A stretch of DNA of 64,000 nt from Diphasiastrum complanatum (lineage: Eukaryota > Streptophyta > Lycopodiopsida > Lycopodiales > Lycopodiaceae): the NCBI GenBank assembly GCA_029204225.1, contig CM055107.1, positions 11,789,068-11,853,067 on the forward strand, read 5' to 3'. The notes under the pieces are model-generated. The model was not told where the DNA came from. It saw only the letters and a program-made list of their open reading frames with translations, and did no database searches. The translations under genes were made by a program, and so were the position numbers. The number at the start of each line of letters is the position of its first letter. Within the stretch, counting starts at the first letter, position 1. Positions 12,774-57,449 of the stretch are shown here, piece by piece.

Positions 12774-13244
12774 ATGCTGACCACTTGGGAAGCTAAGGAT
12801 GGCAAAGCATTAGCCATTGTATCTCTGAATCTTAAAGATTCACAAATAGCTCATCTGGCAAATTGTTCCAGCTCCAAAGAAGCATGGGACATTCTTTCTG
12901 GTCTATATGAAACAACAAATGTATCGACTCGTCTCTTCTTGAGAAAGAAGTTCATGTCGTTCAAGATGAGTGAAGGAACCTTAGTCACTGATCATTTGAA
13001 TGAATTCAAACAACTGCTAAATCAATTAGCTGTAGTAGGTTCGCCAGTATCAAACAAAGATGCTAACATGTCTCTTCTATCCAGTCTTTCTCCCTCTTAC
13101 GACAATTTAGTATTGCTCTTGGGCAATGGTCCTGACCTGTCTCTACAAAAGTTAAAAACAAGTTTATTGCAGGAAGAAGTAAGAAGGAAAAGCTTATCCA
13201 TGTCAAATATTATGACACTCGCCCTCTATTCGAATAAGCAATAG
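12774..13244 (+). pseudogene. Copia element 1 gag fragment
   Basis: An open frame of 156 codons has the copia Gag (UBN2/DUF4219) pattern: TTWEAKDGKALAIVSLNLKD, then SSKEAWDILSGLYE, LFLRKKFMSFKM and LLQEEVRRK. It ends at a premature TAG; the same frame continues beyond it into a Lys-rich linker and the degenerate zinc knuckle. Upstream, the FHVWKFKMRMI stretch is broken by stops. Confidence 0.85.
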
Positions 13245-17145: not shown

Positions 17146-17277
17146 AGACATTTCAGTAATCTGCATTTCTACTGCGGATTATCGGTCTTGTTTCTATCAA
17201 GACGACTTTCAAGCAAATGCGCAGCCAACAATATTCAAACAATTGTTGTTTCTACCAACGATCTAGTCCAACCAAAA

Positions 17278-18510
17278 TGGATCTGTCATCCAGTTCATCT
17301 CTCATTGACAAACTCGATGGAGATAACTACCATCTCTGGAAATTCAAGATGAAGGTTATACTTCTAGCCAAAGAACTATGGTACATTGTTTATGGCACAG
17401 AGCTCAAACCAAAAGGTGATGTTGCCATCATCACCAAGTGGAGACTGAGAGATGGCAAAGCATTTGCCATGATCACCCTCAATATCAAGGATACTCGGAT
17501 CAGCCACATACGTGCTGCTCAGACCGCTAAGGATGCATGGGACATCCTAGCAACTCTCTACGACATTAGAGACGTTACATCCAAGCTCCATCTGATGAAG
17601 AAATTTTTCAACCTCAGAATGTATGAAGCAGATAGTGTTTTGAGCCACCTCAACACTTTCAAAAATCTTATGGAGTAGATGACTGCAACTGGCTCAGTCA
17701 TAGAAGATTCTGATGCACTCATGACTCTATTATTGAGTCTACCTGAAGCCTACAAAAATTAAGTGATGGCAATTTCTACCCAGGAGCACCTCACTCTATC
17801 AAGAGTAATCTCGTTGTTCCTACAAGAGGAGATCAGAAGATCAACATCCTCCTCAGGCTTGGGATCGGATCCTCAAGTTCTATATTCAAAAAATCAGAAG
17901 TCTAGATCCAAGAGATTTACAAAGTTAGACTCTACTGACAAAAAGGGCAATATGCAATCTAGACCAAATTTTGGTTCAGGATTAAATTCAAGCTCTTCAT
18001 CATTCCAACCTGTGCAAAAACTAATCTGTAGATACTGTAAGAGGACTGGTCATGAAATCAAGGACTACCGAACTTTGAAGTACAACAATGAAAAAAAGAA
18101 GCAGTTCCAGCAACAAGCACATAGTCGGAGAACAACAGGATATCAATTCCTGGTATCTAGACTTTGGAGCAACACAACATATGACTCTAGCATGCTTGCT
18201 AATAATACAGCTTTCGCATGGAGAAGTTGGCTTGCTGATTGAAGGTAGGTCTTGTACTAGATTCTGAGCAGACATTTGCTAAATATTGTTATGTCAACAA
18301 GCCAACTTCTCCATGTGAAAGTTGTATAATCAGCAAGCATGCTAGAAGTCCTTTCAGTTCCGACTCGGTTCATACTTCCAAAGGCTTGCTAGATCTTGTA
18401 CATAACGACATTTGTGGCCCGATGCAGACTGCTTCCACAGACTGCTTCTAGATTCATTTGGGTTTTAGTTGTCATCTATATGAACCCCATCTATTTCCTA
18501 CACTCAAAGT
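17278..18510 (+). mobile_element. Truncated Ty1-copia element 2 (gag to integrase start)
   Basis: Gag starts at MDLSSSSSLIDKLDGDNYHL and runs with KDAWDILATLYD and LFLQEEIRR. It is broken by a TAG near 17677 and a TAA at 17761. The zinc knuckle CRYCKRTGHEIKDY (about 18030) has lost its last Cys. Protease is absent. The GAG-pre-integrase segment KPTSPCESCIISKHAR and the integrase start GLLDLVHNDICGPMQ follow to about 18480, after which all homology ends. Reverse transcriptase, RNase H and the 3' LTR are missing. Its Gag resembles that of element 1 (shared DGKA.A, KDAWDIL), so they are probably related families lying in tandem. Confidence 0.88.
18187..18349. repeat. Inverted repeat inside copia element 2
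   Basis: The GAG-pre-integrase coding stretch at about 18298-18349 (+) is present again as a reverse complement at 18187-18237, with about four mismatches over some 48 bp and about 60 bp between the arms. The + strand reads KPTSPCESCIISKHAR from the right arm, and the - strand reads the same peptide from the left arm. The left arm replaces the protease region. Confidence 0.9.
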
Positions 18511-19690
18511 TGTCCTCATCCATCTCTAGAAGAGACAACTGTAATTTTAGTCAGTTGATCTCTTTACTACATAGCCCTACTCTTGCTCCCTCCTTTTTAG
18601 CTTTTGATGATTTTTTAAATCATTCTTCTCCCTAAACGGGTTGTTTTTTCTTCTTTCTCCTCTGCAAAAAAACTTTGCAATTGCAATCTTCCTCCAACTT
18701 CTTAAAATCTATCGGATAGCCTCTTTTTGTATTCTTGTTTTCTTCTTCCTTAAGTCCAACCAGCTTGTTATCATTAACGTGTCTTGCTCTGTCTTTTTGC
18801 TCCAATTCCTTCTTGTCCTATTCGGATGTAATGGCATTAAGAAAAACTCAATTACACACCAACAAGGGCTTGAGAAAAGCTTATATTTTAGATTTCCTCA
18901 TCTTCATCTTCATTGTCACTATTGCTCCCTTCCTCAGCATCATGTTCTGGAACTAAGCATTAAAGATCATTTTTTACACCATGATGGTTTGCAGCTGATT
19001 CCTGAAGCGACTTTTGACAAATTGAATTTCCTGTAGGCCAAGATTTTCATCGTTGTTTTGATTTTTGGGATGATTCACTTACTTTGTCGTGCCTTAAATT
19101 CCGAATTTTCCTTTTGTAAAGCAGGGAGTTCCTCTTTGGTTGATACTCATTGTGATTTAACTTTTTTTCTATTTGTCATTATGACTTTTTTCTATAACTT
19201 GTAATGCTGATAATTTTGTGAACAATTGAATCAAATTGCTATGAAAATAGCTCCTTTTGACACTCCAATCAGTTTCTTCTTCTATGGATATCTCCCATTT
19301 GAACTCCTCAGATTGTTTTGTTTATCCACCAGCCACATGTGCGAATTGGTATACAATCAGATAAGTTTCAATGATTGTTTCAAACAACTATATCTGCTGA
19401 CAGAAACATTACCCAGTATGTTGATAAATTACAAACGCCAACATAATCAGATTAATTGCAGCTCATACATTATGTATATTGTTCGACTTCCTGTAGAATA
19501 ATAAAAAGCAAGGCCAAATGTAAACTTTCCACCCTGTATTAGTTCTACAAAAATCCAATCGAATGGTGTGATACACATCTGATACTGTGGTGCTCAATGA
19601 ATTATATACGTGTCCAGCTACAATATGTCTCAATCAAGATGCATATCTGCACTAATATTTTGCTAACCTGTTCAATCTAAAATAATTCTA
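18510..19690. other. No recognised gene
   Basis: AT- and pyrimidine-rich DNA downstream of the truncated copia element. Overlapping hydrophobic ORFs (18641-19036, 18735-18956) are compositional and show no domain or splice support. Confidence 0.45.
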
Positions 19691-21184: not shown

Positions 21185-24100
21185 TTAGAGAGAGAAGAGT
21201 TCAGGAGTGTGATAATCATAGAGACCATTGGTTCGACTAGCACAACAAAGCCGCCGTTCATCCACATGCTCCACGTTGAGGCCCAGAAACCAAGCTCCCA
21301 CTGACACATCTTCATGACGATAAGTGTGCAAAAGTGCACTGCAGTAAGAAAAGTTTCAAAGAATCAACTCCATTATCGCTATTGACTTGTGTATTGACAA
21401 TCAAAAGTTAACTAGAAATGTCAACAATGCAGAAAGAAGTACAAAAGTAGCACAGTCTAAGGAGTTTGAAGTATTCATTGATGCAGTGAATAATCACCTT
21501 TCACAGTCTTCAAAATATGTCAGGATCCAAGGAAATTGGAGAATATGAAAAAAAAATTAATTTGTTGGTCACACTTGTGGTAACCTACTATTTGACCAGA
21601 GCTCCTTTGATACCATTCTCAACATGCTATTGTTTTTAGCAAAGGAAAGTCTTATACCATACAACATCCAGCTAACTCTAAAATGGACCAAAGAATGAAA
21701 AGATTAAGGGCATCACCCATTGATAGAAATATACTGTGCTAGAGCTTTTGAAATTCCAAATAATTGGCCTTCAGCATGAGTGAAGTACCTGGGAGCAAAC
21801 AGCATCATCACAGATACAAGGCCAGTTACTTAAAACATTAAATTTTGATGCAAAGAAAATAGGTACACTACAAATTATCCGACTTAGGCAATTCCAAAAC
21901 ATGATATGCTTTTTGTAAAGGCATGAGTATCTTCCTCCACACGAAATTTTACTTCCTTGAAGGTTCTTTCTATTTTAAAAGAAATGTCTCTTTCCTTCTG
22001 GTTGAAGAATTGACCATTACTATCCCATTTCAGTTATTTGAGAAACCTTTTAAATAAGATTTGAAGCTCTCTATGGTATCTCATTTTCTTTTCATATGGC
22101 TCAAACTTCTCTACAAGGCAAATTCTTGTAACCCAAGGACTGTTTGGAATTTTGAAAACCTTAACTTGTCCCCCCACGGTATGGTTTCCTCTTTGTAAAG
22201 CTTGATACGTCCTCTATGGTAGCATTTGTTAGTTACCTTCTAACTTCTTTAACTGATAACGGAATGCGTGATTCTCCCTTTTTTAAAATTACTGTTTTGC
22301 TACCAGAATATTATGTTGATTTTTTGCTCTCCTTTCTGGTAATCAGCAATTTGAAATGTCTTCCTTCTAGTAGCCCCATCCTATTCATCATAATCATATC
22401 TCATACATGTAATTTCAACAATATTAAATTACAAGTCTTTGGAGTCTTTATCATCATGGGTGTGTCCGGATTGTTCATCATTTTTCTACAAATAAGGGAA
22501 GGATCAAATGGAAAAGAACAATCTACTTATTACAAGGTCTAAGCTACCATTACACTTCTAGAGAGAGAAAGAAAGAAAGAAAGCTTTAGTAATGTCTTTA
22601 CCATGCCAAAAACAACATAAGACGAAAAAAGTACATGTCAAGTGTAAGGGAAAGCACCTTAAGATCCTACTTACAAGACAAACACAAAGGAACAACAATG
22701 GAGCAAAACCACCCAACCAATGAGAACCAATGAGAAGCCACCGATCAATCTCCAGTAGCATCACCCCCGACCCGACTAAGAGCATCCGCAACTTGATTAG
22801 AGCTGCCTCTTATATAACGGATCATGATCGAATTCTTGCATCAATTCGGCCCATCAGACTTTCCTACCTCGAAGATCATATTGATTACAAAAGTACTTCA
22901 GAGGGTGTGATCCGTCTACACTATGAATTTACTACTATACAGGTAGTGTCTCAAGGTTTTAAGTGCAAAAAAAACTGCAAATAATTCCTTTTCCTGTGTC
23001 GTAAAACGCAACTGAGGACTGGTGAATTTCTTGATTTCAAACGCTAGTGGCCTATCATTCTGTAATAGAACTGCTCCAATTGCACTATCACTTGCATCAC
23101 TTCTTATGACGTAAGGTTGATCTAGATCTGCAATGTATAAAATGGGAGCCGAAACAATCAGGGCTTTAAGTTTCTCAGAGCATTGATTCGGTTCCTCATT
23201 CCATACAATAGGTGGACTAGGTTAATTCCTCTTTTTCTTTTTGTTGACAATGCCTTTTGTCAAATTATTTAGTGGTGCCGCCACTTTGGCGTAATCCTCA
23301 ATACATCTTTGAAAGAAAACCATAAATCCTAAAAATGATTTAACTCGCTTAACAGTTTGAGGGATTGGCCAATCAGCAACTGTCTTGATTTTATCCTCAT
23401 CAATCTTGATCCCATAAGTCATGATCTTATGCCCGAGATAAACCAGCTCATGCTTAAAGAATGCACATTTTGATTCCCTAGCGTAGAATAACTCTTGCCA
23501 GACCTTCATCAAAACAATTTTGATATGCTCTACTCAAAGGTTGTAGACGAGAATATCATCTAGAAACACTACCACAAACTTCGCCAAATATGGATGAAAT
23601 AAATTGTTCATCGCTTGTTGGAGCGTTCGTTAACCCAAAAGGTAACACTAAGAACTCATAATGGCCAAATCTGGTACAAAATCTAGTCTTTTGCACATCT
23701 TCCAAATTAATTCTTATTTAATGGCACCTTGTTCTGAGATCTATCTTAGTGAAGCATTTAACCCCACCTAAGCGATATGTACAAGGTCGTCCATCCTACC
23801 TCTACATGAATCTTCAATTGCATGGAGGCCATTTTTAGGGCGAATGAGGCCATTTGACAGGGTTATAACGAGGGATATTTATTCTTAATAGTCACTATAT
23901 TTAATCCCTTGTAATCCACACACATCTGGAAACCTCCATCCTTCTTCGCTTTCAGAAGAATAAGAGCGCCCCAAGGTGATATACTGGGCTGGATATGTCC
24001 TCTCCTCAGATAGTTTTCTATTTGATTTGAAATCTCTATCTCCACTTTCTGAGAGAACCTATAAGGTTTCCTAGAGATAGGTTGACTTCTTGGAATTAAC

Positions 24101-27100
24101 TCTATCATGTGGTCTACCGAACTAGATGGCAGTAAACCATGAGGTAATTCTATTGGGAATACATCTTTAGATTCACTTATGATCTTATCTAAATTTATTG
24201 AGTTTAGAATTGCCGAGAATCACAACTATTTAGATACACATCAAAAACATCCACAATAGGAAGTACAAACATTGAAAAAACTTCATATTGTGAATAATCA
24301 AATGCTTCCATCATGTTAACTATAAAAATCGCATCCAATGGATGAACAAAATTATAGCCAAATAATGTAACTATTTTATCACCCTCCTTGAAAGTGAGAA
24401 CATGCTTTTTAAAATCAATAGCCAGAGAAGGCAACATATCCAAAAATTAAATCAATACATGCTAAGTTTAAAACATGAAAATTAACTAATTCTCTATGAT
24501 CTTGAATCTGCACTGGGAGATTCGGCACTTTAACATTCCAAGTCTCCAACTCAGCTCCTGAAGTAGTAAACTCGATATCTATGATTGTTGGCTTCGGTTG
24601 TCAGGCTGAGTTTCTGCACAAGACGAGAATTAATAAAATTAAGAGTAAAACCAATGTCTATTAGAATACTGACTTCTTGATCCTTAGCCTTTTGAACGAA
24701 ATAAATCGTTAGGCAAGAAAGTAGTACTAAAAGAACATTCACACTCACAATCACAATCATACAAGTTAATGTCCAAAGTTTTACCTTTACTACCAGGAAT
24801 TTCAATCATCTGTGCTGCAAGTTTCTTTCTTTCTAGACAAAATTTCATCATATGCCCAAGCTTGTTGCAAATGAACCATAGATTTGCCTTTTTAGCCTTG
24901 ATCCGGGACATAGAATTTTTCTTTTTCTTTTTCTTCTTCGGTTCCGATGCCATTTGATCCAATTCGTCAAATTACTTGGGAGCTCAATCTAGACCTCACT
25001 TCTTCCCCTTCTTGGTTCTCGAGGTGGATGGAATTTGTTGAAATTGCCTTTTAAGTAAGTGTAAGGTGAAACGACCTCCAGTGGCTATTCTTCAAAGATA
25101 AGCTCACATCATTGCATAAAGGCCTTGATGTAATGAAGACCATAACCTTGTTTTTCACAATGTTAGCTCCCAAACCCCATTTGGTACAAAAAGCATGAAG
25201 ATTGTCCAGCTATCTTTGTACACCCTCTCTAGTCATGGAGACTAGAACCACATCATCTACATAAAGAAGAATGGCAAGAAAACAACCCTCCTCCATGCCA
25301 GTGGTCCTCCATATCTGCTTTGAAATACCTTTGGCAATCCAGAAACAACCGAAACCTCTCTCAAAGAGTGCCATAATTACTAGAATTGTGTCATTAAAAC
25401 AACCAAGATCGCGTAGCCTCTAGATGAGTAAGGAAAGTGAGACTAAGTTAAAAGCTTTTCTAAAGTCAACGAAAGTGATCCCGCTCCCTCCTATGTCAAT
25501 CCACCTCAATGATAGCTGGGAGAGTAAAGTTATGATCTGTAGTGGAATAATGAGCCTTGAAATTTGCCTAGCCCGATGCATGTAGTCTCCTAGTCTCAAC
25601 CTCAAAACTCACCGCTGACTTGAGAATAGTACCATACAGCTTCGCAATAACATGTCCAATCATAAGTTATCCTTTCTCCTAAATCATTCTTTCAAATGGC
25701 TTATGTTGAATACAAGATGAACTCCAACTCCAACTCCAACTAGAAGATCTAGTGGCTTAGCAACCCTGCTGATTTCTATGCAACCTTGTAAGGACTAGTA
25801 CAACGAGGAGATAGCTTATGGCTTTCGAAGTATCTTAGAATCTTTTGGAATTTTAAAATACACCCAAGTTCCAACCTCAAATTCTCAAGGTGAGCAATTA
25901 CAGTTAGCAAAAAAATTGAGCTCTATCCTAAGCGGTTTTGTGCTTTCTTTGGCCACTTGTAGCATTTCTTGCATATCTTGCAAGAAATCGACTACAATTG
26001 GAACCTTAAGACCTTTTGAATCTGACAGAGTCTGGCAAATGTGGTTGAAAGCCATACATCAGCATTAAAGGATTAAAGGCAGACTACTTCACACTACTGT
26101 GCGCAAACCCAACCCTTGGGAAATACATTATCCAATCATACTAACTGTGAGATACAATGCCTGAAGCATATCCTCCATACTTTGTTTAAAACATTTTATC
26201 TGAAGAACTTGGACTAAGGCTTGTTTCAGGTTTTTCACAAACTGATTGCCAATACTTTTCAATGAACTTGGAGTCTCAAATCAATAACAATATCATTCAA
26301 CAAGCCATACAATTTAAAAAGTTGGGCTACTTCATATGCCTTAACAATAAAGTTAGTTGGTATAAATTGCACCATATTGGTTAGTCTGTCAACCACTACC
26401 CAAATAGCATCGTGACCTTCCATATTCTAGGGGTCTAGTCACAAAATCCATTGATATACTTTCCAAGTTCTTGCTGGAAATTTCCAAAGGATGTAAAAGA
26501 CTTGAAACTTTGAGTCGTTTTGCTTTGTTACACTGGCATGGTTCACAGCCTTAAACATATGCCTCAACTTGACCTCTCATCTTTGGTCAATAAAGTTGTG
26601 TCACTCATGCACTGGACCAAGTATCCCAGTGAGCATATAACCCGTGTCATGTTTGACCGGTCAACCCTGACATGTGTCGCTCATACACTGGACCAAGTGT
26701 CCCACTGAACATATGACACGTGTCCTATTGACTAGTCAACTCTCCTACTTTTTAGCAGGTCAGTCCAACCACTCCTAATAAATGACCCAGTACTCCATGC
26801 CAAAGCTAAGCACGACTCTGAGGTTCAATGCCAACTAATTACGGTTTATTTACAATTCACTTACAAAAGGTCACCATAGCCATTTCAATAATTACAAAAA
26901 TCGCAAAATGTACATCTATCTATGAAAATTGTAAATAACTAGAACAAGGAGTAAAAGTTGTAACATAGGGTGACTAGCAAAAGGTTGTCATGACACTACA
27001 ACAAGATTTGGGCCCTAAGGCCCTCCTTATCTGGCACACATAGCTTTTCCTTTTGAAAAAATAAGCCATTCCTTATGGAATATCAACTCGATACCTTATC

Positions 27101-28314
27101 TTTCGAGATTTTTTGGGATCCTACATCCCAAGGTTTGTACTATGGCATGCCCATGTTTGGGACTGATCTCGGTTAGCTATCCCGTAAAGAGGTCAGTAGG
27201 CCTACCTCAAGCCATAAATCAATTATGAATATGAGGGGTTGGAGCCCTCATGGTATTAAAGTTATCATAGGGGAAGTGGATGAGGTGGCCTAGTTTGGAT
27301 GTTGATGTGTCCAGTGTGGTGTCACAGTTCACTCCTAGTTGAGGAGGAGCCTTGGAGGGTATAAGTATATCCATAGGCCTCCCATGGAGGTGAACGAGAT
27401 TTGGAGATTGTAACTATATGCTGCTAGAGTGACATTTGTCTCCTATTGAGCATTGGTTGGTCCATAGCTTGGGGGCTAGATCTATTTGATCTCGGTTTGG
27501 TTGGGTAAGTTTGCGCACTATCCAATTTCCTTTGTGTCTATGGGTGCATCCTAGTCTTTGATCCCTGGAGGAGGACTTGAAAGTGGTATTAGAGCCAAAG
27601 CTAGTAGGAATTGTTGATGGAAAGCACATAAGAGGAATCCAAGAATTGGTGTGCGGATCTTCTGAAATGGGGTCTTGATTCCTGGAGAATGGAGCTAAAG
27701 TGGAAGAAAAAAATTGGTGGTTTGACTCACTTTGTTTTTTTCAATTTTAGGGTTTCTCGAGAGGATTTGTGTTGCAAGGTAAGTGCACTACCAAGTTTTG
27801 CAACAAAGTTAAAAATCAAGCTTGGCTTTATCTTGCTGGTTTTTTGGCAAGCTTCAGTTTCTTGTTTTTGGAAAAAGCAGAGTCAAGATTGCTATTGAAA
27901 GGAAATTTCAAGCTTATGTTGAAAGATTTCACTATACTCTTTAAATCCTTTTGCCATTTGGTTATTTTGAAGCCTTATGGCATCTATTATGTAGTTTTTG
28001 GAAGTAATAGAAACAGCAGGGGGTAAAGAGAGCAGAGAAGTAAGGCATTAGCCATATGCTGTGCCTTAACTAAAGGGCAAAAAAGTATGGATTTAAAACC
28101 TGTCAAACCAAAGACTTTCCTGCAAAATGGATCTAGTACAGTACAATAGCAAGATAAAAGATGCAAAGAAGCTGTCAAACAGCCATGAAAGGCTGTTCTT
28201 TCTTTGTATACTTCTTTTTGGCTGGAAAAAACTACTCTTGCCATGAAAAGAACAGCAATTGAAAGTGTGTTAGTACCTACTGCAGGGGCACGATCCAAAC
28301 CCAAAACAGTTTGG

Positions 28315-28376
<62 letters not shown>

Positions 28377-29229
28377 GCTGCTGGGAAAGAAGCGGGAAAA
28401 GTGTGGAGACAGGCTCGGGGCTCAGGCAGCCCGAGCTCAAGTTCTCCACGACAGAGCGACCGAGGGGGGATAGTCTTAGATAAGTTGTTTTCCCACTTAC
28501 TGAATCGATTATACAGTTTTTATTGCAGTATTATGTCAGAATGAATGAATACTTCTCTGTTTTATTGTAAAGCACAAACATTTGAATACTCTTAAGTGTT
28601 TCAAGCTTGGCTTGTAACCATATTAGGCGTGCATTAAACCAACTTGCTAGGTTCTTGGAGAAGACTTTGCTTCCTCTCCCAATATTGGACCGGTCTCTCT
28701 TGTCATGGGCGGACCGATCGATTCAAACCACTTGACACGCTAAGCCAAACGGTTATGAAATTCCATAAAAGGAATAAGTAGCGCTCTAATCATATGCAAT
28801 ACTTGTTTAACCTATTAAAATCTGTTAATTCATAATGTCCCCAAGGCAAAACGAATTTCATTGGTCCTCTTGTTTCAAGAAGGTAAAGCTTCCTCCGGGT
28901 GGAGGGAACTTCCTTCAAAACCAACAAAGTGGCCGGATTCCTTGCGGATCCCAAAAGCTTTCATTGTTGTTCTTGACTCGAAATGAATATTTGTTTTATC
29001 GAACGCCGAATTGGCAAACATGAATTAGCAACCAATGTCCAAGAATTCATGTAAATTTTGGCCAAACAATACCTACCATAGCTTTGCAATTCGTGCAATT
29101 AAGTACCAAACATGAAACACACAACCATGTTAAGATTAAAAAAAATCCATAATGTGATCTTTTCTTTCTTTGTCTTGATAATTTGAATCCTCTGCACTAT
29201 TCCTCTCCTTGAGCACTATCGACTCCACA

Positions 29230-29300
<71 letters not shown>

Positions 29301-32300
29301 GTAAGCTTATTTTACAAAGATGAGATCAATTGGTGGTAGGGGTTTAGGTGGTGTGTGTGCGGCATGTCTATACAAAGAATTCCTATGCCAAGTTCTCATA
29401 GTAGTTAGACAAGATGAGTAGGTACATTACATGTGGATCAAACACACATGGATGTGTCATTGGTCTAGAGAGGGATGTGTACATTGCAGCATGTTACCTT
29501 CCAAAGACCTCCTTGTATCAAAGATAGATGTTTCTTGTTTGCTGGTATATCATTTGCCATCATAACATTTTCAGAGAGAGGAGATGTATTCTTTTGGGTG
29601 ACTTTATCAATCAAACAAGAGGACAAAAAATTGACTGAATATCAACGTCACCAATCTAAAACACGACTTTGAAACTATAGAAACAAGGATAAAACTTGAA
29701 AATGTTAAAATCTTACGATTTTTTGTCACCAAACTTCCACCATTCTGGCTCATACCACTTATGTTTCCTGTGGATCGAACAAGAAATATGACCATGAGAA
29801 TCAATATTTAGTGTATTTTGCATGACAATCGAGTCTAACAAGCCCCTATTTATAGCATGCATTTCTAAGTCAAGCTAATAAACTCTTCAAACCCATCAAC
29901 AAAATCTTTCAAAACTCAACTGATGGCTTTGCATAAGAAATCAAAGCAAATGGGAAGAGCAAGGATATGATTGTCTCATGCTTATTGCAGATTCACCTTA
30001 CGATTGTACTCCTTTATTTATCATGCATTCATGCACACAAACAAAGCCATCTAGGCATTTGACTTACGGATCACTGAACACCTCTCCTGATTTCATACAT
30101 CCCACATAAACACGTGGTTTATCCCAATGAGTGGCTAGCATTTCTCCTAACTTATCTGCATCAATAGCAATACATGTGCCAATGTGACAAACTACCTCAA
30201 AAATATCAAAAGACAGCATGTTCCAGATTTATAGAGGACTAACGTAACTTATAACTGGATCACAATGCCTTCTAAATACATAGGATAGCCTCCAAGATGA
30301 TGAACACTAAAATTGGCCATATTTTTCAAAATTTTGTACAAGCTTGCTTGAGCAGAACTCTACAAACATTTCCAGATGAAACTTTACCAACATTTACAAA
30401 GACATTGTCATCGACTTTAACATAAAAGTCAGCATCCCATTTTTCCACTGCAATGCTGAAAAAAGCTTTTGTCTTTCTAGAAAGTGCCTCAACGTCCTCG
30501 ATATGATCACTCTGCAAAAATCATGTTGCCATGAAATGAACCAAAATGACCATTTTACTTAATTTTCCAGCTATAACTTGAATAGAATATGACACAATAC
30601 CAATAGCAATAGTATTGATATGCTATATTGCAAAGGAACAAGTTTCACCAACTACAGAATCTATCAAGCTTCACCAACCCAAGGATTTACCATTCATCTC
30701 CTTAGAAATGAATGTGCCAACTTGATTTTACAATTTGAAATCTGAAAGCAAACTTAGCCTAACTACAAATTACCTGAAAGAAATCCATGGCACGTGTGGT
30801 ACCATGTGAATCAACCCTAGCAAAAATATGCCATAGCAAAAAAGAAATTTGTCTCGACATTTTAGATGCATTTGAAACGTGGACATTTGAAACACGTTCA
30901 AAAACGTTTCAAACGTGTTTGAAGGTCATAACGATAGGCTAGTTGTTGAGGTTTGTCCTAGAGACTAGTGTTAGAGTTTCTAGAGATGGTACACCAACAA
31001 TGGACAATAGGAGGAGAAATTGCTAAGTTTAGTCGGTTAGGGACTCTTGGGCTGTGAGTATAAGTAGCCTAAGGTGAATCCATTTGTGAATCTCTAATTC
31101 CTATCATGGATCCAACATATTCGATGTGAGCGGCAGGTCTAGAGGTCATAGGACCAGTTCGAGACGGTCGATGACTCCCCATCAGAGGCACTTGAAGCCA
31201 GTAGTGTCTAGGTGTGTTGCAGTTGCAACTTGGTGTACTTGCACGGGACATGCTACGTGGCGAGTTTGGTAGAGCCGATGTACAACTGACCAAGTTAACC
31301 CGTAATTTGCCGGGCAATGACTAAGGTTATTCGGCATGTGACCGGTGTGGTTTGGTCTTATAGCCACGTGTATGGTGGGCATGGGGGTGGCATAGCATTA
31401 AGACACTGTATTCTTGGGTCAATAGGGGTAGACTTGGTAGGCGAAGTGGACTGATCACCCACATGAGCGTCAAGGGCCCTCGAACCAAAATAGCAAGCAG
31501 TGGGCTTAAAGGCTTGCCTATGGATGGGAGGAGATGCATTCTACACACTGGCTAGGTTGGGGAGAGGAGCTTGGAGCTCTTGGCTTCTAATATTTGATAT
31601 CACTGCTCAAGGTAAAACACATTCTAGAGAGAGAAAGTCCAGTTTTAGAGAGTGTGAAAAAAAACACTATTTCCTCTTCTTTCTTGGGGGGTTTTCGGAG
31701 GGAAGAGTTGTAGATGCATCTGTGGGGGTGAAAGGCAGCATTACAGGTCTAATAATTCTGTTTTTAAGAGGTGAAAATCCTGATTTTCCACAATCAGATT
31801 CACCTCTACTTAGAAGGGCAAAAATACAAAAATGTTCATAACTTCTAAACGGGTTGGTGGATCCCCACGAAATTTAGAACCCACTATTACTACTAAATCG
31901 CTGCCCTACAGGTACGACTATAACTTCTAATGAATCTATTATGATTTTTTCTATCAAATTAATCAAACAACATGGATTTTCAATTGTGACATAAGAACTG
32001 GATGTATTGCAACAACATGAATCCATGGAAATTGGATAAATCATTCAAGTTGGTATGATGTCGCGAAAGGAGACAAAAGAGGATATTGCGACAATACCCT
32101 CTACCTATTTCATGCGTAATTGTTTGCCGAAAAGCATTATGGTATTTCATCAACCTCTTCTTCATGATGGATTATCGTTCTCATTCCTTGTCACTCTAAT
32201 CTGATTTTTCATCTACATCCATTCATTTATCCAATTGTTGTAGATTAGAATTGTGTTTACAAGTATGTGGTTGCATCCACTAAGTCTTGTGCTTGTAATT

Positions 32301-35300
32301 CATCTTGTTTGTACATGCTACTTATTGAATACAACTCTATGTTTTTTATTGTATTCAGTATTATGTCAAAATGAATGTATGCTTTTCTGATCAACTGTTA
32401 TATTTTCGTTCTCTTATAGTTTTGTCAGATCTATCACTGCTCAGCAAAGCTACCCAACACATGAGAAGGAACTATATGCGATAGACATTCACTCAATGTA
32501 TGGTGACACTATTTATACAGTGCTGAATTTATGTTTATACCGATCATCATACTCTTAAGTACTTCCCCGATCAGCCAGAGTTAAAGGCTCACCAGGCACG
32601 GTGGGCTGAGCTGATGCAGGAATTTCATTTGGAGATTCTGTATCAGAAAGGGAAGGAGAATGTGGTCGTGGGTGCATTGTCTCGTATAATGTATCGAATG
32701 TCTTTCACAATTGTTGAAAGCGAGCTCATTAATGAGATTAGATAGGCTCAACAAAGAGGTGAGCATTGCCAATGTGTGTGGCCTAGTGCACGTGTCATTA
32801 CCAATATTTCGGATGGAGCAACCATGTCTATCTCCTCTAATGAGACACACATATCTTGCATGCACCATAGAGGGAGGTATGCTAAAGAGAAATGGAAAAT
32901 ATTACATGCCAGACATGAACGGAATTCGCCGTAAGATCCTTCATGAGTGTCATGATCGTCCGTGCGCAGGGCATCTTGAAATGGATAAGACATCTGAGTG
33001 AGTTAGTCAACACTTCTTTTGGCCACGTATGCGGTGAGACATTAGAGAGTACATCCAGTGTTGCATGCCTTGCCAGGTGAACAAGAGCGGAGACTTATCT
33101 ACGTAAAAATCGCTCGTACAGGGAGTTCGAGAGAGGTGATATGGTCTTTTTGCTAGTGCCACCTAGATCTAAGGTGATGAGAGTGGCAAGTGTCTATCAC
33201 CAAGGTATTGTGGACCATGGCAAATCAGTGAGCAAAAAGTACGGAATATATGAAGTGGCCAAAATTGTTTGAAACAATAATAATGTGGGCAACAGCTACA
33301 ATATCATCTATAGATTTTTTGATTCTTCAAGCATTGCATGACAAATCCACATAGTGCGTTGGCGTGAGAGAAATACAGTTCTCTCACGAATTGTGTCTTG
33401 CTTACTAGCGGACTTTTGGATCTACAGATCCTCTACAGAATTGTCTCGCACGCTGGCGGACATGTATTCTGTATTTTTCGTCTTCTGACTTCTTGTCTTG
33501 TTTACTAGCATTGGTATTATGCATCAAACATAAAGTATATAGTTTGCAAACTTTTTCGTGTCATGTCGTGTAGCTTACAGATTAGAAAGATTATACATCT
33601 ACAACTAATCGCGAATTACAAGAGTGGCAGATTAGCCACGATCTAGAATACTTCTGCTGATGTCATGATATTTGATCAAATATTTGTACCCCATGGTACT
33701 TGGCTGATCTTCTTAGCCGTTCGTGGAGCAAGAAAGATATTGTGTCGCAAAACAATTTTGTGTCGTGTGTCGCGAAATTGTTCGCGAACAATTTCGTTTC
33801 TTGTGTCTTTTTTAGTCAAAATCTGTGCATGGCTTTGGCACTAGAAACATTTTGTTTCTTCATATCCCTCTCAAAGCATGGTAGCTTGACGACTCCAAGA
33901 CTACTCCTCTGTTTCTCGAATAGACCTTTGTCTAGGGCCTTTGCGAAAATGTCAACAACCGTCTTTCGTTTCAATGAAGGTGGTCTGCAGCATCTTCTTC
34001 CTTGATCGCAATGTGTTTCGTCCTTGAGTGAAACACAGGGTCTTTTGTCAGATGTATTGCAGATGTGTTGTCCATCTGCAAAACCAGAGGTTCATTCCTC
34101 GTTTCGCCCAATTCGTCAAAAAACTGTCTGAGCCAAATTATCTCATTGGCCATCTTTCTTGCTGCAACGTACTCTGCTTCGCAGGATGACTGAGCCACAA
34201 TCGTCTGCTTCTTGCTGACCCAGACACCTGACGCGATGGTGCATCCTCTTGAGACACTTTTGCAGTCGTCCTTGAGAGATGCCCAGCTAGCATCACTGTA
34301 GGAAAGCATCTGAAACCTTGCATCATGACAATAACACAAACCATAATCCTTTGTTTATTGAAGATATTGCAAAATTTGTTTTGCAATCTTCCAATGTGTC
34401 GAGCCTGGATTTGTGCAGAATTGGCTCCTGAACACAGCATAAGCAATGTCAGGACATGTGTTATCTGCAAGGTACATCAGCAATCCTATCAATTTCCTGT
34501 ATGGTGTGAGCTGCATCAATTCTCTCTCTTCTTCAGTCCTCAAACAATTTCCGTTCATCAGTACTGTTCCTGCAAGCATTGGAGTATTCGCTCCTTTACA
34601 ATTCAGCATCCCAAAATCCTCTAGGATTTTCTGGGTGTATCTGGACTGATGAAGGTACAACTTACCTCCCTCATAGTCCCTGTCAATCTGCAAGCCAAGG
34701 TAACACCTGGCTTCTCCCAGATCTACGATCTCGAAATGTTTCGAGATGTCATTCTTCACTTCAAAAATCAGCTTCTCACTTTTGCAGAGTATCAGAGTGT
34801 CGTCCACATACACAGCCACAATGATGATCTTCCCATCTGTAATTCTCACATACACATTGGAATCAGCCATTAGTGGCTTGAATCCCAAGGATTTCAGGGC
34901 TTGATCTTTCTTTTTGTACCATTGTCGAGCTGACTACTTTAGACCATAGATACTCCTATGCATTCTACATGCATAATTAGGAAGTGAATTCAAGACATAT
35001 CCTGGGGTTTTGATCCATGTAGACCTCTTCGTCTAACTCACCATGCAAGAAGGCTATCTTCTCGTCCACAATGGGGATCCTGAGGTCATAAGCAGTTGCA
35101 TATGCAAATAGTAAACGTAGGGACGAATGTTTCACGACAGGAGAGAAGGTTTCAGAATAATCAATACCATATCTTTGAGAGAATCCCTTCGCTACAAGTC
35201 TTGCCTTATATTTCGAAACATCTCCATCTGGTCCATACTTTAGCTTGTATACCCATTTGCATTTTACAGCCTTTCGCTTATCTGGTAATGGCTGCAACGT

Positions 35301-38300
35301 CCATACCTGGTTCTTCCTCATGGATTCCATCTCCTCGTTCATGGCTTGGATCCATTTGTCCTTCTCTGGACATTCAATTGCCTCCTCGAATGTCTGTGGT
35401 TCGCCACTGAATCCACAAAACTCTTCTGATGTAGAAGCAGAGCTGCCTGGCACATATCTTGCTGGCGCTCTTCGTTGTCTTGTCAACCTTCTAGGAGATC
35501 CTCCTGGAACTGCAATGCCTTTGCCTTTGTCTGCTCTGCTAGGTCCAGAACCATCTTGGTTTACAGGCACTGTAGCAGAAGGCTGCCTCTCGAATCTTTC
35601 GTCTTCTGATTCGTCACTCGAATGCGAAGCGACTCGAAAATCTTCGTTTTCGTGTTCGTCTTCTGCTTCCTCTGTCACAGGTGGCAGATCATAGTACTGT
35701 CTTTCAAGAACTTCATAGCTGACAGGATCATCGTTGGCCATCGTTCTACTCTCATCAAATCTGACATCTCTGACTGTCTTCACAGTGTTCGTCTTTGGCA
35801 TGTACACTCTGTAGTATGACGAATTGTTGTCATATCCTACAAGATATCCATGTTCAGCTTTCTCATCAAGCTTCTTTCGAAGCTTATCAGGAATATGTGC
35901 ATAAGCTGCACAGCCAAAGATTCTGATGTGAGTCAGACTGGGTTTTCTACCCCACCATAATTTGTGTGGTGTCGTGTGAGAGACACCAAACTTTCCTGTC
36001 ATGTTCTGAATGTATGCAACTATAGCTACTGCTTCAGCCCACAGTACCCTTGAGCTTTCGAATAGGCCATCATGCATTGGGAAGCTTCCATCAGAGTCCT
36101 ATTCTTTCTTTCTGCAACACCGTTGTGCTGCGGTGTGTAAGATGCAGTCCTTCTGTGAATGATACCATGATCATTGCAGAACTCAGTGAACCGATTTGAG
36201 ATGTATTCGCCACCTCGATCTGTCCTGATCTGCTTCACTTTGTTGCCAGTGCATATCTCTGCCCAATTCACATACTCTGTGAATTTGTCAAATGCTTCTG
36301 ATTTATTCTAAATAAAATACACTCTGGCAAATTTACTGTAATCATCAATGAAGATAATGTAATATTTTGAGCCTCCTATTGAGATCACATTGAAAGACTC
36401 ACAGATGTCATAATGCACTAACTCCAGAATCTTGGTCGTTCTGTAGGAGTCCTTGACAAATGGAGTGCGTGACATCTTACCTTTCAGACATGCATCACAG
36501 GTGGTCGAATTGTTCGCATTCGAGATGCTGACCCCTGTAATTGCTCCATGATGACTTGCTTGATATAGTGCCATTGAGTTCATATGGCAGTGAACCAATA
36601 CCGTTCACATGTTCTTCCATTTGCCTTTGCTGGTCCTCTCTGCTTGCTGATCACAATCCTATTTTCAATCTGACTTCCTCTTAGGCTTGAATTGTTTATC
36701 ATTCTGTGTTTACAGACGTCGGAATCCGACTGCATTCAAAAACGTCGCAATGCGACATCCACGTCACAGTGTTTGCGAATAGATCCTTCATCTTCCTTAC
36801 AAAAGAAGTGAGGTCTTTGCCATCCCACTGCAGATTTGTCAGATTTGACTGCGTGATTTCGTTGAAATCTCGTGAGTAGTGTATCCCAAATCTCCTTTGC
36901 TTTGGAGAGTGTAGTTAGGTCAAGTGTGAGGCTATCCTCGATGGATGATGATAGCAAGGCTACTACTGCCTTGTCATTTTTCTCCCTCCATTCGCGTAGC
37001 TCCTTGCCTGTTGTTGTAGGCATCTTCTCGGTGCCATCCACCCAGGGGAATAATCCTTCACCCTTTAGCATCAGCGAGGTCCTAACTCTCCATGCTAGAA
37101 AGTTAGAAATCCAGAACTGTACAGATCTTGGATTGCATGCTGCTGATTGAAGCCATTGCTTCTGAATTTGTCTTTTCACTTCTTGATGGTTGATTGTTTG
37201 AATGCTTAGCCCCTTTGAACTGATAGCTTTTCGGCTATGTCAGACTATGCTTCTTGGTTTCCAAGGGGAGGCTCGAACCTGGCTATGTCAGACTATGACA
37301 AGGTAGGCTCTGATACCACTAATGCGAAAAAATGCAATCAGAAAATGCAAATCCCAGCTAGAACTCTGGTGACAAACTGATAAAAATAAATCTCAAACGA
37401 TTCGCGAAACTCGAATTATTTCTGTTCGAGAATAATTTGTGTTGGATCAATCAAGCTCTGAAACACAACGAAAACGAAACGAAGCAAAGCGAAGTGAAGC
37501 TTAAACGAGCCCTTACATTGATTCGTGCTGAAAGCATAGAGATCGCGAAATGACACGAAACGAAACGAAATGAAATGAAGCACAAGCATTCGCGAAAAGA
37601 TCAATTAAGCTCTGTAACAAGACGAGACGAGACGAAACGAAACAAAACTTAGGTGAGCTCTGAAATCTATTTACCCTTATGGCCAAGTGATCGCGAAGCG
37701 AAGCGAAGTGAAGCGAATTGAAGCGAAGCGAAACACGAAGCGAAAGGATTCGCGAACAAGATCAGTTCGTCAGGAATTCAGATATGATTGCTGGTCACTG
37801 CCGGCTATATCATTTCTACAATCCTTCAAAGAGTAGACAGACATTGTCGATCTACATTAACAAATTACTATAGCATTCAACAAGATCAAACCAAAGTGCA
37901 GAATTAAATGAGCAAGTGAATCAGACACACGAATTGTAGCAGACAAAAAATACATTCAAGATATAATGTGCACAACAGCTACAATATCATCTATTGATTT
38001 TCTTATTCTTCAAGCATTGCATGACAGATCCACGCGCAGTGCGTTGGCGTGAGAGAAATATAGTTCTCTCACGAATCGTGTCTCGCTTACTAGCGGACTT
38101 CTGGATCTACAGATCCTCTACAGAATTGTCTCGCACGCAGGCGGACATGTGTTCTGTATTTTTCGTCTTCTGACTTCTTGTCTTGTTTACTAGCATTGGT
38201 ATTATGCATCAAACATAAAGTATGTAGTTCGCGAACTTTTTCGTGTCGCGTCGTGTAACTTACAGATTAGAAAGATTATACATCTACAACTAATCGCGAA

Positions 38301-39520
38301 TTACAAGAGTGGCAAATTAGCCACGATCTAAAATACTTCTGCTGATGTCATGATATTTGATCAAATATTTGTACCCCATGGTACTTGGCTGATCTTCTTG
38401 GCCGTTCGTGGAGCAAGAAAGATTTTGTGTCGCGAAACAATTTCGTGTCATGTGTCGCGAAATTGTTCGCGAACAATTTCGTTTCTTGTGTCTTTTCTGT
38501 CAAAATCTGTGTAGAGAGCTAGCATGGCTTTGGCACTAGAAACATTTTGTTTCTTCATTGTAGAGATCCTTTATCCTGGTTTATTGGAAGAATATGTTGT
38601 TTGTACCAGTCTTCAACTCAACTGTTTGATTGGTGCTGACTTTACACTTCAGAGTCTTTGCATGTGCAATTCGGATACATTCAAACAATAAAACAAATTT
38701 GATAGTTTGATCAATGTTAAAAAAGACTCTTTTGTTGTGTAAGCAGTGAGATGCAATTTTAAGGGGATTCATAGATGCTTACTGTAGTTGCCTAGATCTC
38801 CCAGTCCAGTACCCCAAATGCCATTGTTGTTTTTCTTTGATACATAAAGCAAGGCATATATCTGTCCAACGGCACACTTTGTATAAATGGAGGATGTACT
38901 TTTGGCCTCAGAATCTCATTAAAAAAACTTTTTTTTCTTTCAAAAATATGTACTAAGAAAAAAATTGTCGAGGCGACGTTCTAGAACGGGTCCCCGTTCT
39001 GGAACGGGCAAGTATGGCTGCAAGGCAGCCTTATTGTCAATATTTTGTGTGTTTGAACCGTTCCGGAAGGGAACGCGTTCTGGAACACGTTCCATTTCGA
39101 AACCTGGGCAAAAAAAAAAGATTTAAAAAAACGTGAATATTTACAAAGGGTCCGTTCCGACCCAGCTTTCAGCATATATTGGTTGAGCAGATTACGGTGG
39201 AGCATCTTCAGCTGGTCAGTCTTCAAATGTCTCACCATCATGAACTCCCATAGTGATTCTGGAACGGCAACTATGCGTGTAACAGAGTTACAACCAATTT
39301 CCGGTTTGTACTAATCTTTAGACAGCAAGGATTCCTTAAGAATTCAAATTCGATACCACTTTAGCTATCACAGTTATGCATAAGTAACAAAACTTCCAAA
39401 GGTTAGCCTTTCAACAAATCTAGCCAATCAATATGCTACTGTCGCGGACAGTATCATAAACCCAGGAGATTTTAACTTCTGCCCACAAAAAACGGTTGCA
39501 GTGCGTTGGGATCTCTCTCT

Positions 39521-39556
<36 letters not shown>

Positions 39557-41732
39557 AGCTGTACCACAGCGATTCTGCTCGCAAACCCTCCTATCAGATA
39601 GCGATTCTGCTCACAAACCCTCCTATCAGATGGATCGCGGCCAGCAAGGGTCAACTTTTTTTTTAATAAAAAAAATATGTTCCGACCCAGTACGTTCCGG
39701 AACGTACTGTACAGAACGTACAGTACGTTTCGACCCAAAAGGGTTGGAACGGCCAACTCTTGATATTCAGAAAGTTTTCTCAAAGCCAAATCTCACGGTT
39801 TCACTATCTGAATAAAAGGTTACAAAGTTGGCCTTTTTCTATGTTCTAAAAAGCTTACATTTGAGTAGTCAGTAGTTTTCTCATTAAAAAAAGCTTCACT
39901 ACAAGTAGATCTGAGAGTGACCCACAAATGTGACACTTACCAATATTAGGAAGTCTTTCATTTCATCATTCTCGACCCCAATGAGCTGATCTATACTATC
40001 GCCCTTGTTTGCACTGATCAGAGGATTAGAATTGCATCTTAGAATTGCATAACAGCCAAGTACATAGTCTACAGCGCCAATTTAAAATATCTACTAGCTC
40101 ATGAAAAAATTGTCAGTTTATTTCCATTTCGAAGATGGTAGGGTAAATAATACTTCAGGTATGTACCTTCTTCCGACCACAAAACGTATAATAATCCCTT
40201 TATTAACCTCAAGTTTTTGCAATGCCGTCCCTGCTGTTGCCAAATTACTATCATCAAACAAGGGCGTCTAGGCTGGTTTAGCGTAAAGCAACTGGGATAC
40301 AATTACCACGCCTTTTCCAAGTAAGTGACTTGAAAAACCTTTTTGAAATCTAAACCAATTTGTAGCCTTACTTTCATTACTCTTACAGACCCTGATGTAC
40401 AAAGTATCCTAGAAAGTTTATCCTACAGTTTATTTGATGAGGAATTCAGAGAAGTCCTCTCACCAGTAGGCATCCAAGTTTTGCGAATAGAGTCCCTTCT
40501 AGATCGTTGACCAAACCCAGTGTTTATGCCTATCACAGCATGTAGCCGATTATTTGACGTTGCATTCGAAATTGGAGGATGTCTAGCACTATAACCTTGG
40601 CTCCTGGCAGCGGATAGCTCTATCTCCAGTTCTGCTAACCTCTTTGTTTTATCCCTAAAGCAATAAGGATGTTAGAGACTTATTCTCAGCTCAATTCCAA
40701 TGGATTTTAATAAAAATATTCTCAAAGACGCTAAAAAAGTAAAGCAAACATGCAGGAAATTGAAACTACAAAACTTACTTGCAGTCAATCCTCTTTAAGG
40801 TGTCATCAATGGATAATGTGCCTGTCCTCTGCCAGATTCAATGAAATAAAAATCGTGATGTAGAAAAATTTAATCATGCTCTATGGACAGTGAGACTGAA
40901 ATAATAGTTCATTGTTCTGTAGGTCAGCATATTAGTCATTGCCAAAATTTGCTCACACAATTTTTATCAGATCAAAGAAGATATAGTGTATATCTTGAAA
41001 GGACTAAAATGAAACTCGAGACAGGGTAATTGCTCAAAAACACATTTAAACAACGAGAAGTGATCCTGTGAAATTGCATGTATTTAGAATGTCTTGATAC
41101 ACTTTATCAGATAGTTTTACACTATTGGAATACATAACTCCCACAAAAAAGTCTCCATGTCTCACACTTTTCGACTTCAATATTGACTTCTGAATAAGAA
41201 GTGCAAAACACTTATAATTATGGTTTATACATGAGTAGCAGAGCCTGTTTTAAGATTTTCATATTCTGAAGGCCGATAAACCTCCAGCTTATTTGAGTGG
41301 AGATATATGAAACGTATAAATACGTTACATAGTAAAGAAGCTGTCTACTCAAACACTCCATTTCTGTACTGACTTTTCAACAACAAATAAGCCAAAAAAG
41401 GAACGTTTGCAGAGACGACCTGTCCATTGGTCTTCTGCAATGGACCGGAAAGGTGTACCCGCACCTCCGCATCCTGCCACAATCTGTCCACGGTAGTGGA
41501 AGACCCTACGCCAAGTTAGTCACAGAATCTATTATATGTCAGACAGTGTCTTTCTGTTCACTTTTTACTGACAAAGAGCACTCTTCAGTGAATAAAGTTG
41601 GTATTCAATGCAGAGAGAATGGCTACCATACCTGCCAGCAATGTAAAAGCAAGCCAAGAAAGAGATCATGACCATGATAAGGGAAATCATGCCACTCCGA
41701 ATCGCCCCTGACTGTGACAACCGGCTCTTCAT
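21185..41732 (-). CDS. Golgi beta-1,3-galactosyltransferase, HPGT type, 11 exons, 351 aa
   Basis: This type-II Golgi enzyme is expected to add the first galactose to hydroxyproline of arabinogalactan proteins. Exons (complement): 41632-41732 (coding part), 41420-41483, 40779-40828, 40464-40654, 40167-40230, 39941-40037, 30388-30511, 30068-30155, 29717-29767, 21717-21788 and 21185-21338. All junctions are GT-AG and in phase, totalling 1056 nt. In order they encode a signal anchor (residues 15-32) ending FYIAGRLWQDAE; a stem with [34 protein letters not shown] at the start of the GT31 domain; GDSID and [22 protein letters not shown] with D223-D224-N225 as the metal site; [41 protein letters not shown]; and [23 protein letters not shown] (E310, D311). 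The length fits HPGTs. H replaces the usual R in YFRHA (YFTHA). An alternative last exon (20591-20625) would change the C-terminus. An upstream exon near 42036-42085 could add a short N-terminal extension in frame. Confidence 0.92.
22700..24962 (-). mobile_element. Ty3-gypsy element (gag end, protease, RT, RNase H) in HPGT intron 9
   Basis: On the - strand, reading down from 24962: a Lys-rich Gag end with a partial knuckle ([11 protein letters not shown], 24840-24875); a protease-like segment with [21 protein letters not shown] (about 24600-24670), in which the expected D-S/T-G is DIG; a spacer with [14 protein letters not shown]; reverse transcriptase ([37 protein letters not shown] at 23890-24080); the thumb/connection region ([17 protein letters not shown], 23222-23512); and RNase H, with [18 protein letters not shown] and [12 protein letters not shown] ending near 22750. 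The catalytic YxDD region is frameshifted, and no integrase follows on the expected side. The element lies in the same orientation as the host gene. Confidence 0.92.
25080..25660 (-). mobile_element. LINE (non-LTR) reverse transcriptase fragment
   Basis: The - strand encodes FVDFRKAF (about 25460), the FVDF(K/R)KAFD motif of LINE reverse transcriptase. Then come [17 protein letters not shown] with the YVDD catalytic core (near 25255-25270), and [19 protein letters not shown]. The fragment is about 0.5 kb with stops, and no endonuclease domain or poly(A) tail was seen. It sits between two gypsy fragments inside the HPGT intron. Confidence 0.85.
25720..26510 (-). mobile_element. Ty3-gypsy integrase fragment
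   Basis: Reading the - strand from 26500 down, the gypsy integrase core is visible as [18 protein letters not shown]. It is followed, through stops and frame changes, by a degenerate C-terminal region with [10 protein letters not shown] and [12 protein letters not shown] near 25830-25990. It lies upstream of the gag-RNase H block at 22.7-25.0 kb in the reading direction, so it cannot be that element's own integrase in normal order. It is either a second element or a rearranged part. Confidence 0.75.
26597..26747. repeat. Tandem duplication, 76-bp unit
   Basis: Two adjacent copies begin TGTGTC(A/G)CTCAT.CACTGG and contain GACCAAGT.TCCCA and TGAC(C/T).GTCAAC. The copies are about 85% alike. 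No coding potential. Confidence 0.88.
27584..27596 (+). promoter_or_regulatory. PBS-like site with probable LTR upstream
   Basis: TGGTATTAGAGCC differs by one base from the initiator-Met primer site. It follows a relatively GC-richer stretch (27220-27580) that could be an LTR. No gag domain follows, so this is at most a solo LTR plus leader. Confidence 0.4.
28317..28373. repeat. (CT)n microsatellite
   Basis: About 28 uninterrupted CT units within HPGT intron 9. Confidence 0.97.
29232..29299. repeat. (CT)n microsatellite
   Basis: About 33 CT units in HPGT intron 9, some 420 bp downstream of exon 9 in the direction of transcription. Confidence 0.97.
30870..30930. repeat. ACGTTT-rich imperfect palindrome
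   Basis: TTTGAAACACGTTC faces AACGTTTCAAACGTGTTTGAA, so the segment can fold. It is reminiscent in style of the GTTCCGGAAC-rich segment at 38.97-39.74 kb, in the same HPGT intron. Confidence 0.6.
31000..32400. other. Unassigned part of HPGT intron 6
   Basis: 31.0-31.6 kb is GC-richer than its surroundings and has a TATA-like GAGTATAAGTAGCC near 31058, as an LTR might, but no partner LTR was found. A stretch around 32340-32390 (CAGTATTATGTCA.AATGAATG) also occurs at 28517-28550, so it is a dispersed repeat. Confidence 0.4.
32540..33272 (+). mobile_element. Ty3-gypsy RNase H/integrase fragment
   Basis: The + strand encodes [20 protein letters not shown] then [12 protein letters not shown] (RNase H end; 32544-32690). 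A spacer follows, then KYYMPDM, then the integrase H2C2 zinc finger: [17 protein letters not shown] and CMPCQ (about 32880-33080). It then jumps to [16 protein letters not shown], which looks like the integrase C-terminal part. The core with the DDE residues is missing and stops occur. It runs antisense to the HPGT gene that contains it. Confidence 0.85.
33283..33862 (-). repeat. Truncated 3' LTR of intronic copia
   Basis: About 580 bp match the 5' LTR segment 37963-38557 with scattered substitutions, many of them CG to TG or CA changes in this copy. The inner end is TGAAGAAACA next to a GAGAGGG polypurine tract. The outer 640 bp are missing; the gypsy fragment ending near 33272 abuts the break. 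Confidence 0.9.
33971..34339 (-). pseudogene. Copia RNase H domain
   Basis: It encodes [30 protein letters not shown] (the conserved S-EAEY motif) and [24 protein letters not shown]. These supply the acidic RNase H residues and the copia C-terminal signature. It is out of frame with the upstream reverse transcriptase. Confidence 0.93.
34355..34888 (-). pseudogene. Copia reverse transcriptase, C-terminal half
   Basis: It contains [11 protein letters not shown] with the YVDD catalytic motif, then [28 protein letters not shown] and [13 protein letters not shown]. It is the continuation of the ORF at 34977-36077, separated from it by a stop and about 90 bp. Confidence 0.95.
34977..36077 (-). pseudogene. 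Copia integrase C-terminus, linker and reverse transcriptase start
   Basis: At 366 codons this is the longest open frame in the window. It begins in the integrase ([35 protein letters not shown]) and passes through an acidic Ser-rich linker. It then enters reverse transcriptase with [52 protein letters not shown] and [18 protein letters not shown]; the usual D of VKTAFL is altered to I (KIAFL). It ends at a stop just before the central palm. Confidence 0.95.
36026..36598 (-). pseudogene. Copia GAG-pre-integrase and integrase core
   Basis: Two frames make up this piece. 36308-36598 encodes the pre-integrase [14 protein letters not shown] and the start of the core ([24 protein letters not shown], first acidic residues). 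36026-36271 encodes [14 protein letters not shown] and [21 protein letters not shown], with the second Asp and the Glu of the DDE triad. Confidence 0.92.
36736..37179 (-). pseudogene. Copia gag fragment
   Basis: Shows the UBN2-type Gag pattern: [41 protein letters not shown] and [13 protein letters not shown]. The zinc knuckle expected downstream is missing, as the frame ends in an unrelated stretch. Confidence 0.9.
37306..37318 (-). promoter_or_regulatory. Copia primer binding site
   Basis: The - strand reads TGGTATCAGAGCC, the initiator-Met tRNA site, four bases inside the CA end of the 5' LTR. Confidence 0.95.
37323..38557 (-). repeat. 5' LTR of intronic copia, 1235 bp
   Basis: On the - strand it runs from TGAAGAAACA to CGCA, giving TG...CA termini. 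Segment 37470-37760 is built of degenerate CGAAA, CGAAG and GAAGCGAA pentamers. The outer half is dense in TCGCGA and TTCGCGAA palindromes. Confidence 0.88.
38970..39740. repeat. GTTCCGGAAC-rich palindromic repeat region
   Basis: Two clusters of GTTCTGGAAC, GTTCCGGAAG and GGAACG motifs (38975-39170 and 39680-39745) flank a (CT)n run and ordinary intron sequence. A perfect 20-bp palindrome centred on CCGG lies at 39689-39708. The shared phrase GTTCCGACCCAG occurs in both clusters. It could be a non-autonomous transposon or one LTR; the boundaries are unclear. Confidence 0.6.
39509..39554. repeat. (CT)n microsatellite
   Basis: Slightly interrupted CT run of about 45 bp in HPGT intron 6. Confidence 0.95.
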
Positions 41733-41787
41733 TGTATAGATCTTGTTATGTCCATGCACGAGCTTAGAAAATATCTCCTTTTCTTGA
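41632..41787 (-). other. HPGT exon 1 (5' UTR end, start codon, signal anchor)
   Basis: A TTTGTAG acceptor at 41788 opens this exon; the chosen ATG is at 41732. It gives a 14-residue basic cytosolic tail and a roughly 18-residue membrane anchor, typical of plant Golgi galactosyltransferases. The frame is open upstream of the ATG, and a candidate 5' exon near 42036-42085 (encoding FESLEELSTFY, donor CAG/GTGTGA) joins in frame, so translation could start earlier. Confidence 0.75.
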
Positions 41788-57440: not shown

Positions 57441-57449
57441 CCGGTAGTG

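Follow-up and report, generated by a model that had tools for sequence, protein, structure and literature searches.

The window analyzed here is a 64,000-nucleotide stretch of Diphasiastrum complanatum DNA (GenBank assembly GCA_029204225.1, contig CM055107.1, positions 11,789,068 to 11,853,067). In the assembly, which has 5176 contigs and totals 1.74 Gb, it lies within contig C16. Its minus strand carries a gene of glycosyltransferase family GT31. Eleven coding exons, from 41732 to 21185, join through 10 GT-AG introns into 1032 nt, or 343 codons and a stop codon. The original prediction described an intact galactosyltransferase gene resembling the plant hydroxyproline O-galactosyltransferases (HPGTs), with retrotransposon-filled introns. 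Its 11 exons do join in phase, without a stop or frameshift across the 1032 nt; the 351 residues it gave for the protein become 343.

Gene Structure

Exons 1 to 11 measure 101, 64, 50, 191, 64, 73, 124, 88, 51, 72, and 154 nt. A paralogue on contig C10 (25065223-25078544) matches the window gene in exon number (11) and in phases, and nine of the 11 exon lengths are identical, all except those of exons 4 and 11. Exon 1 (41632..41732) begins with the ATG at 41732 and aligns with exon 1 of the paralogue. Equal lengths are likewise found for exons 2 (41420..41483), 3 (40779..40828), 5 (40167..40230), 6 (39941..40013), 8 (30068..30155), and 10 (21717..21788). They are also found for exon 7 (30388..30511), which holds the DxD position (residues 215-217), and exon 9 (29717..29767), which together with its flank is 100% identical in a second copy on contig C235. 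The longest exon, exon 4 (40464..40654), has 197 nt in the paralogue, and the first ~38 codons of exon 11, which ends with the stop codon (21185..21338), align well with its counterpart there. Both the longest exon and the gene end at 21185 had been placed correctly, as had the two long introns, intron 6 (30512..39940; 9429 bp) and intron 9 (21789..29716; 7928 bp), both GT-AG.

The coding start with the best paralogue support is the ATG at 41732, from which the C10 protein aligns. Farther upstream, in-frame ATGs also occur at 41810 and 41813, and no stop intervenes. Position 41787, proposed earlier as the gene boundary, is by eye the first base after an AG and thus a possible acceptor in the 5′ untranslated region, not a start codon. 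An exon 2 start at 41505, using an acceptor 22 nt upstream of 41483, was rejected because it breaks the frame, which requires 41483.

Because exon number and phases are shared with the C10 paralogue, the exon join is not due to chance. In a control that joined pieces of the same lengths drawn from the two long introns, none of 20,000 random joins was open; this control does not take the codon content of exons into account, and comparison with the paralogue is the more stringent test. Both lines of evidence reject a chance join. A processed or broken pseudogene was also rejected, given the presence of introns and the open join. That gene finding by the length of open reading frames would miss the gene is true here, but the same holds for many plant genes and is not remarkable.

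Protein Family and Domains

The predicted protein matches the Pfam family Galactosyl_T (PF01762) over positions 1-193 of the 195 in the profile (8.8e-39, 133.8 bits against a cut-off of 23). A match to this profile above its curated cut-off and across the domain is what defines CAZy family GT31, and the profile check proposed with the original prediction thus bears out the family. DUF4094 is also matched above its curated cut-off (5.1e-6, 27.3 bits against 24.5), and Fringe weakly (1e-4). The galectin family is absent among these three Pfam families matched at E 0.001. The protein therefore shows the replacement of the galectin domain by DUF4094 that characterizes GT31 clades I-III, of which clade III comprises the HPGTs (PMC9321575). 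HPGT1-3 belong to GT31, lack a galectin domain, and are cited as hydroxyproline galactosyltransferases (PMC4687291). The Protein Data Bank yielded two matches, beta-1,3-galactosyltransferase 6 (1.2e-10) and beta-1,3-galactosyltransferase 5 (1.5e-4). A hydrophobic stretch lies near the N-terminus at residues ~13-33, with a mean hydropathy of 2.3 over 19 residues.

The window gene has Asp-Asp-Asn (DDN) at the DxD site, so that the third residue departs from the canonical motif with Asp at positions 1 and 3. DDD has been reported for six GALTs, GALT31A, and At1g77810, and DxD has been linked to metal binding (PMC4687291). The residue of HPGT1-3 at this site was not found in print within the available text of that paper and a limited literature search.

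Copies and Relatives in the Genome

Searching the genome with the protein gave 70 matches with E values up to 1 (all 71 candidates scored), which fall on the window locus, the second copy on C235, the C10 paralogue, and GT31 genes that are less closely related. The coding sequence of the C235 copy is identical, and its five main blocks of alignment show 99.4-99.8% identity to the window. Its introns 6 and 9 measure 9474 and 8043 bp, compared with 9429 and 7928 bp in the window gene. One colinear block (21905-39057 of the window) runs through most of both introns, so the element remnants are common to the two copies. With 39 mismatches in the 17,164 columns of this intron block, only ~2 differences would be expected in 1032 nt, and the absence of any difference in the coding sequence is therefore uninformative. 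From its similarity, the C235 copy is probably the other haplotype.

Outside the gene, the window at 18290-19552 (~1.26 kb) has no colinear match in C235 save 78 bp at 86%. Between the flanks of this stretch, C235 has ~1.97 kb (44897 to 42928), a structural difference that adjoins copia gag frames.

The C10 paralogue shares 242 of 343 aligned residues (71%) with the window protein. Synonymous divergence between the two (dS) is 1.34, near saturation, and nonsynonymous divergence (dN) is 0.19, giving a dN/dS of 0.14 (bootstrap 0.09-0.20, defined in 999 of 1000 resamples). The window gene and its paralogue have been under purifying selection, as averaged over both genes and the whole time since duplication. 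In the paralogue, intron 6 spans 8242 bp and intron 9 only 805 bp; intron 9 either grew in the window gene alone or shrank in the paralogue. A better intact copy elsewhere, with the window locus silent, had been named as a case that would undo the original prediction. An intact paralogue does exist, but the window copy is intact as well.

Retroelements in the Introns

Of the 49 stop-to-stop frames of at least 70 aa in introns 6 and 9, 20 were scanned for domains, and the tally of retroelements covers these introns outside 25401-29600, 30600-33279, and 38559-39940. Intron 6 contains a decayed copia-type long terminal repeat (LTR) retrotransposon (33280..38558, minus strand, with its coding frames in the orientation of the gene), recognized by an LTR pair and Pfam pieces. 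Copia-type or integrase domains were found in five of 10 scanned frames at E 0.01, three of them over the curated cut-off. RVT_2, SH3_retrovirus, and Retrotran_gag_2 exceed it, and rve and gag_pre-integrs fall under it. The gag, integrase, and reverse transcriptase pieces lie in separate frames, and reverse transcriptase itself is split over two, which marks the element as decayed. No matching target-site duplication was found by eye in the flanks of the LTR pair.

The two LTRs (33280-33863 and 37963-38558) share 555 identical positions in 597 aligned columns, with 14 gaps, and their Kimura two-parameter divergence is 0.050. Such divergence suggests that the element entered intron 6 long ago. 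At a rate of 1.3e-8, which we take to be that of grasses, the age would be ~1.9 million years (My); at the Liriodendron rate of 1.51e-9, which holds only if the host is close, it would be ~16.6 My. LTR divergence in Liriodendron itself peaks at 0.05, ~16 million years ago (PMC6784881).

Intron 9 carries a gypsy-type fragment, a reverse transcriptase RNase H piece at 22919..23221 on the minus strand (Pfam RT_RNaseH_2, 1.3e-25), inside a repeat at ~22770-25050. It is one of two Pfam matches at E 0.01 among the 10 frames scanned in this intron; the other, just under cut-off, comes from a frame spanning a CT repeat. The stretch around the RNase H piece matches many contigs, in at least 85 pieces including the window locus and C235 (40 of 11,425 candidates scored). 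Intron 6 of the C10 paralogue has its own direct repeats, ~0.35 kb in all, which are probably LTRs, with copia domains between them in three of the six frames scanned (nine listed). The original prediction counted at least five retroelement pieces in the two introns. One copia element, with two LTRs and gag, integrase, and reverse transcriptase pieces, and one gypsy-type fragment are present, and the figure of five holds only if the parts of one element are counted separately.

Repeats also occur elsewhere in the window. Further copia gag and reverse transcriptase pieces lie outside the gene at 12774-13241, 17217-17675, and 57326-57853. An inverted repeat pair (49643-50383 and 61382-62139) of ~750 bp is 88% identical and 11 kb apart, and the segment 60932-61589, which overlaps the second of these repeats, is 77% identical to 24229-24871 in intron 9. 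The open frames 8820-9329, 11416-11952, and 17763-18239 (170, 179, and 159 aa) have no Pfam match at E 0.001.

Function, Clade, and Alternatives

Judged from its sequence, this is probably a functional plant gene of family GT31, with HPGT (clade III) as its most likely type, and two of its introns would have grown by LTR retrotransposon insertion. The primary transcript would extend over at least 20.5 kb and be spliced across both long introns, with a copia element having enlarged intron 6 and a gypsy-type element intron 9. The product would most likely be a type II membrane enzyme of the Golgi, with UDP-galactose as the galactose donor and, again most likely, hydroxyproline of arabinogalactan-proteins as the acceptor.

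Several observations weigh against parts of this reading. The exon 11 tails past ~38 codons (12 residues here and 20 in the C10 paralogue) do not match each other. At the metal site, all eight further GT31 genes compared within the genome have DDD; these are the C10 paralogue plus seven more, counted apart from the C15 match and second copies on small contigs. In Liriodendron, transposable elements are said to favor the space between genes over the genes themselves (PMC6784881), so introns as full as these may not be typical of every gene. The HPGT label, moreover, depends on provisional reference sequences; the intact GT31 gene with retrotransposon-swollen introns stands apart from this dependence. 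Percent identity ties between the two provisional references, and only bit scores separate them. As leads only, the window protein scores 377 bits against HPGT1 (53.1% identity over 311 residues) and 268 bits against a clade I protein (53.3% over 274). For the C10 paralogue, identity is 52.4% over 336 residues to the same HPGT1 and 45.1% over 359 to the clade I protein.

This tie in identity is one reason to consider that the gene belongs to another DUF4094-bearing clade (I or II). As a beta-1,3-galactosyltransferase, its product would then lengthen arabinogalactan chains and not initiate them on hydroxyproline. DUF4094 occurs throughout clades I-III (PMC9321575), and the C-terminal ERRLCCAS of the window protein resembles the DRxxCCGTP ends of other genes in the genome. 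The bit scores, however, favor HPGT1, and the stretch AGRLWQ and another of 24 residues agree with the provisional HPGT1 reference. The CCGTP-ending genes, which we take to be clade I, match the window protein at only 39-65% per exon, compared with 71% for the C10 paralogue. HPGT membership is likely on the provisional references, and placement in clade I or II is unlikely, though not negligible.

The metal site raises a different question. An expressed protein with lost or changed metal-dependent catalysis could have another role, for example as the partner of an active enzyme, and the DDN motif set against DDD in the other genes, the C10 paralogue included, speaks for this. HPGT1, however, presumably also has Asn at the third position, which would make Asn a clade feature and count against such a loss or change. 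HPGT1-3 are, besides, the proteins cited as hydroxyproline galactosyltransferases (PMC4687291), and such another role is a very faint prospect. There is a slim chance that the window gene and its DDD paralogue form a natural pair in which the DDN enzyme has altered metal dependence or no transfer activity while purifying selection is kept. The DDN/DDD pair could in any case be used to ask whether HPGT-type enzymes need a canonical DxD site.

A gene intact on paper could also be silent or mis-spliced through premature polyadenylation or heterochromatin caused by its retroelements, and in Arabidopsis, elements within genes can influence transcription (PMC4417168, PMC10241880). The dN/dS of 0.14 relative to the C10 paralogue and the lack of any lesion in 1032 nt despite the old intron 6 insertion make this highly improbable. 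Because dN/dS averages both copies and all the time since duplication, recent silencing would still be compatible with it.

Comparison with Known Systems

The architecture of the gene is ordinary for such a genome, though at the long end, because other GT31 genes of the genome also spread over long spans. Measured between outermost matches, these spans are ~8.6 kb on C2, 11 kb on C12, and 17 kb on C11; that on C9, of 15 kb, is bounded by weak matches (E 0.2 and 1). Shorter spans of 2.3 and 2.5 kb are found for C10 at 61.47 Mb and C3. In magnoliids and Chloranthales, long genes and introns have been described as prevalent, and in Chloranthus LTR elements contribute most to them (PMC8626473); within Liriodendron genes transposable elements favor introns over exons (PMC6784881). 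Together with the long, copia-bearing intron 6 of the C10 paralogue, this prevalence leaves the idea that the gene is remarkable without support. The case has little importance beyond annotation, as one in which retrotransposons have entered the introns of a cell-wall glycosyltransferase gene and left its exons intact.

Like Arabidopsis HPGT1-HPGT3, the window protein combines Galactosyl_T with a hydrophobic N-terminal stretch and has no galectin match. Its 53% identity over 311 residues is to the provisional HPGT1 reference, whose C-terminal tail differs from that of the window protein. It shares Galactosyl_T, DUF4094, and a conserved EDVS region with clade I beta-1,3-galactosyltransferases of the GALT8/B3GALT type, and 53% identity over 274 residues with the provisional clade I reference. 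Unlike the CCGTP genes of the genome, presumably clade I, which have DDD at the metal site, the window gene combines DDN with CCAS. As a gene longer than 20 kb with LTR elements within its introns, it resembles the long-intron genes of magnoliids and Chloranthales, from which no clear difference was found in the available text of PMC8626473. It differs from Arabidopsis genes, whose introns average 153 bp in the ortholog set of that paper, in that two of its 10 introns reach 7.9 and 9.4 kb.

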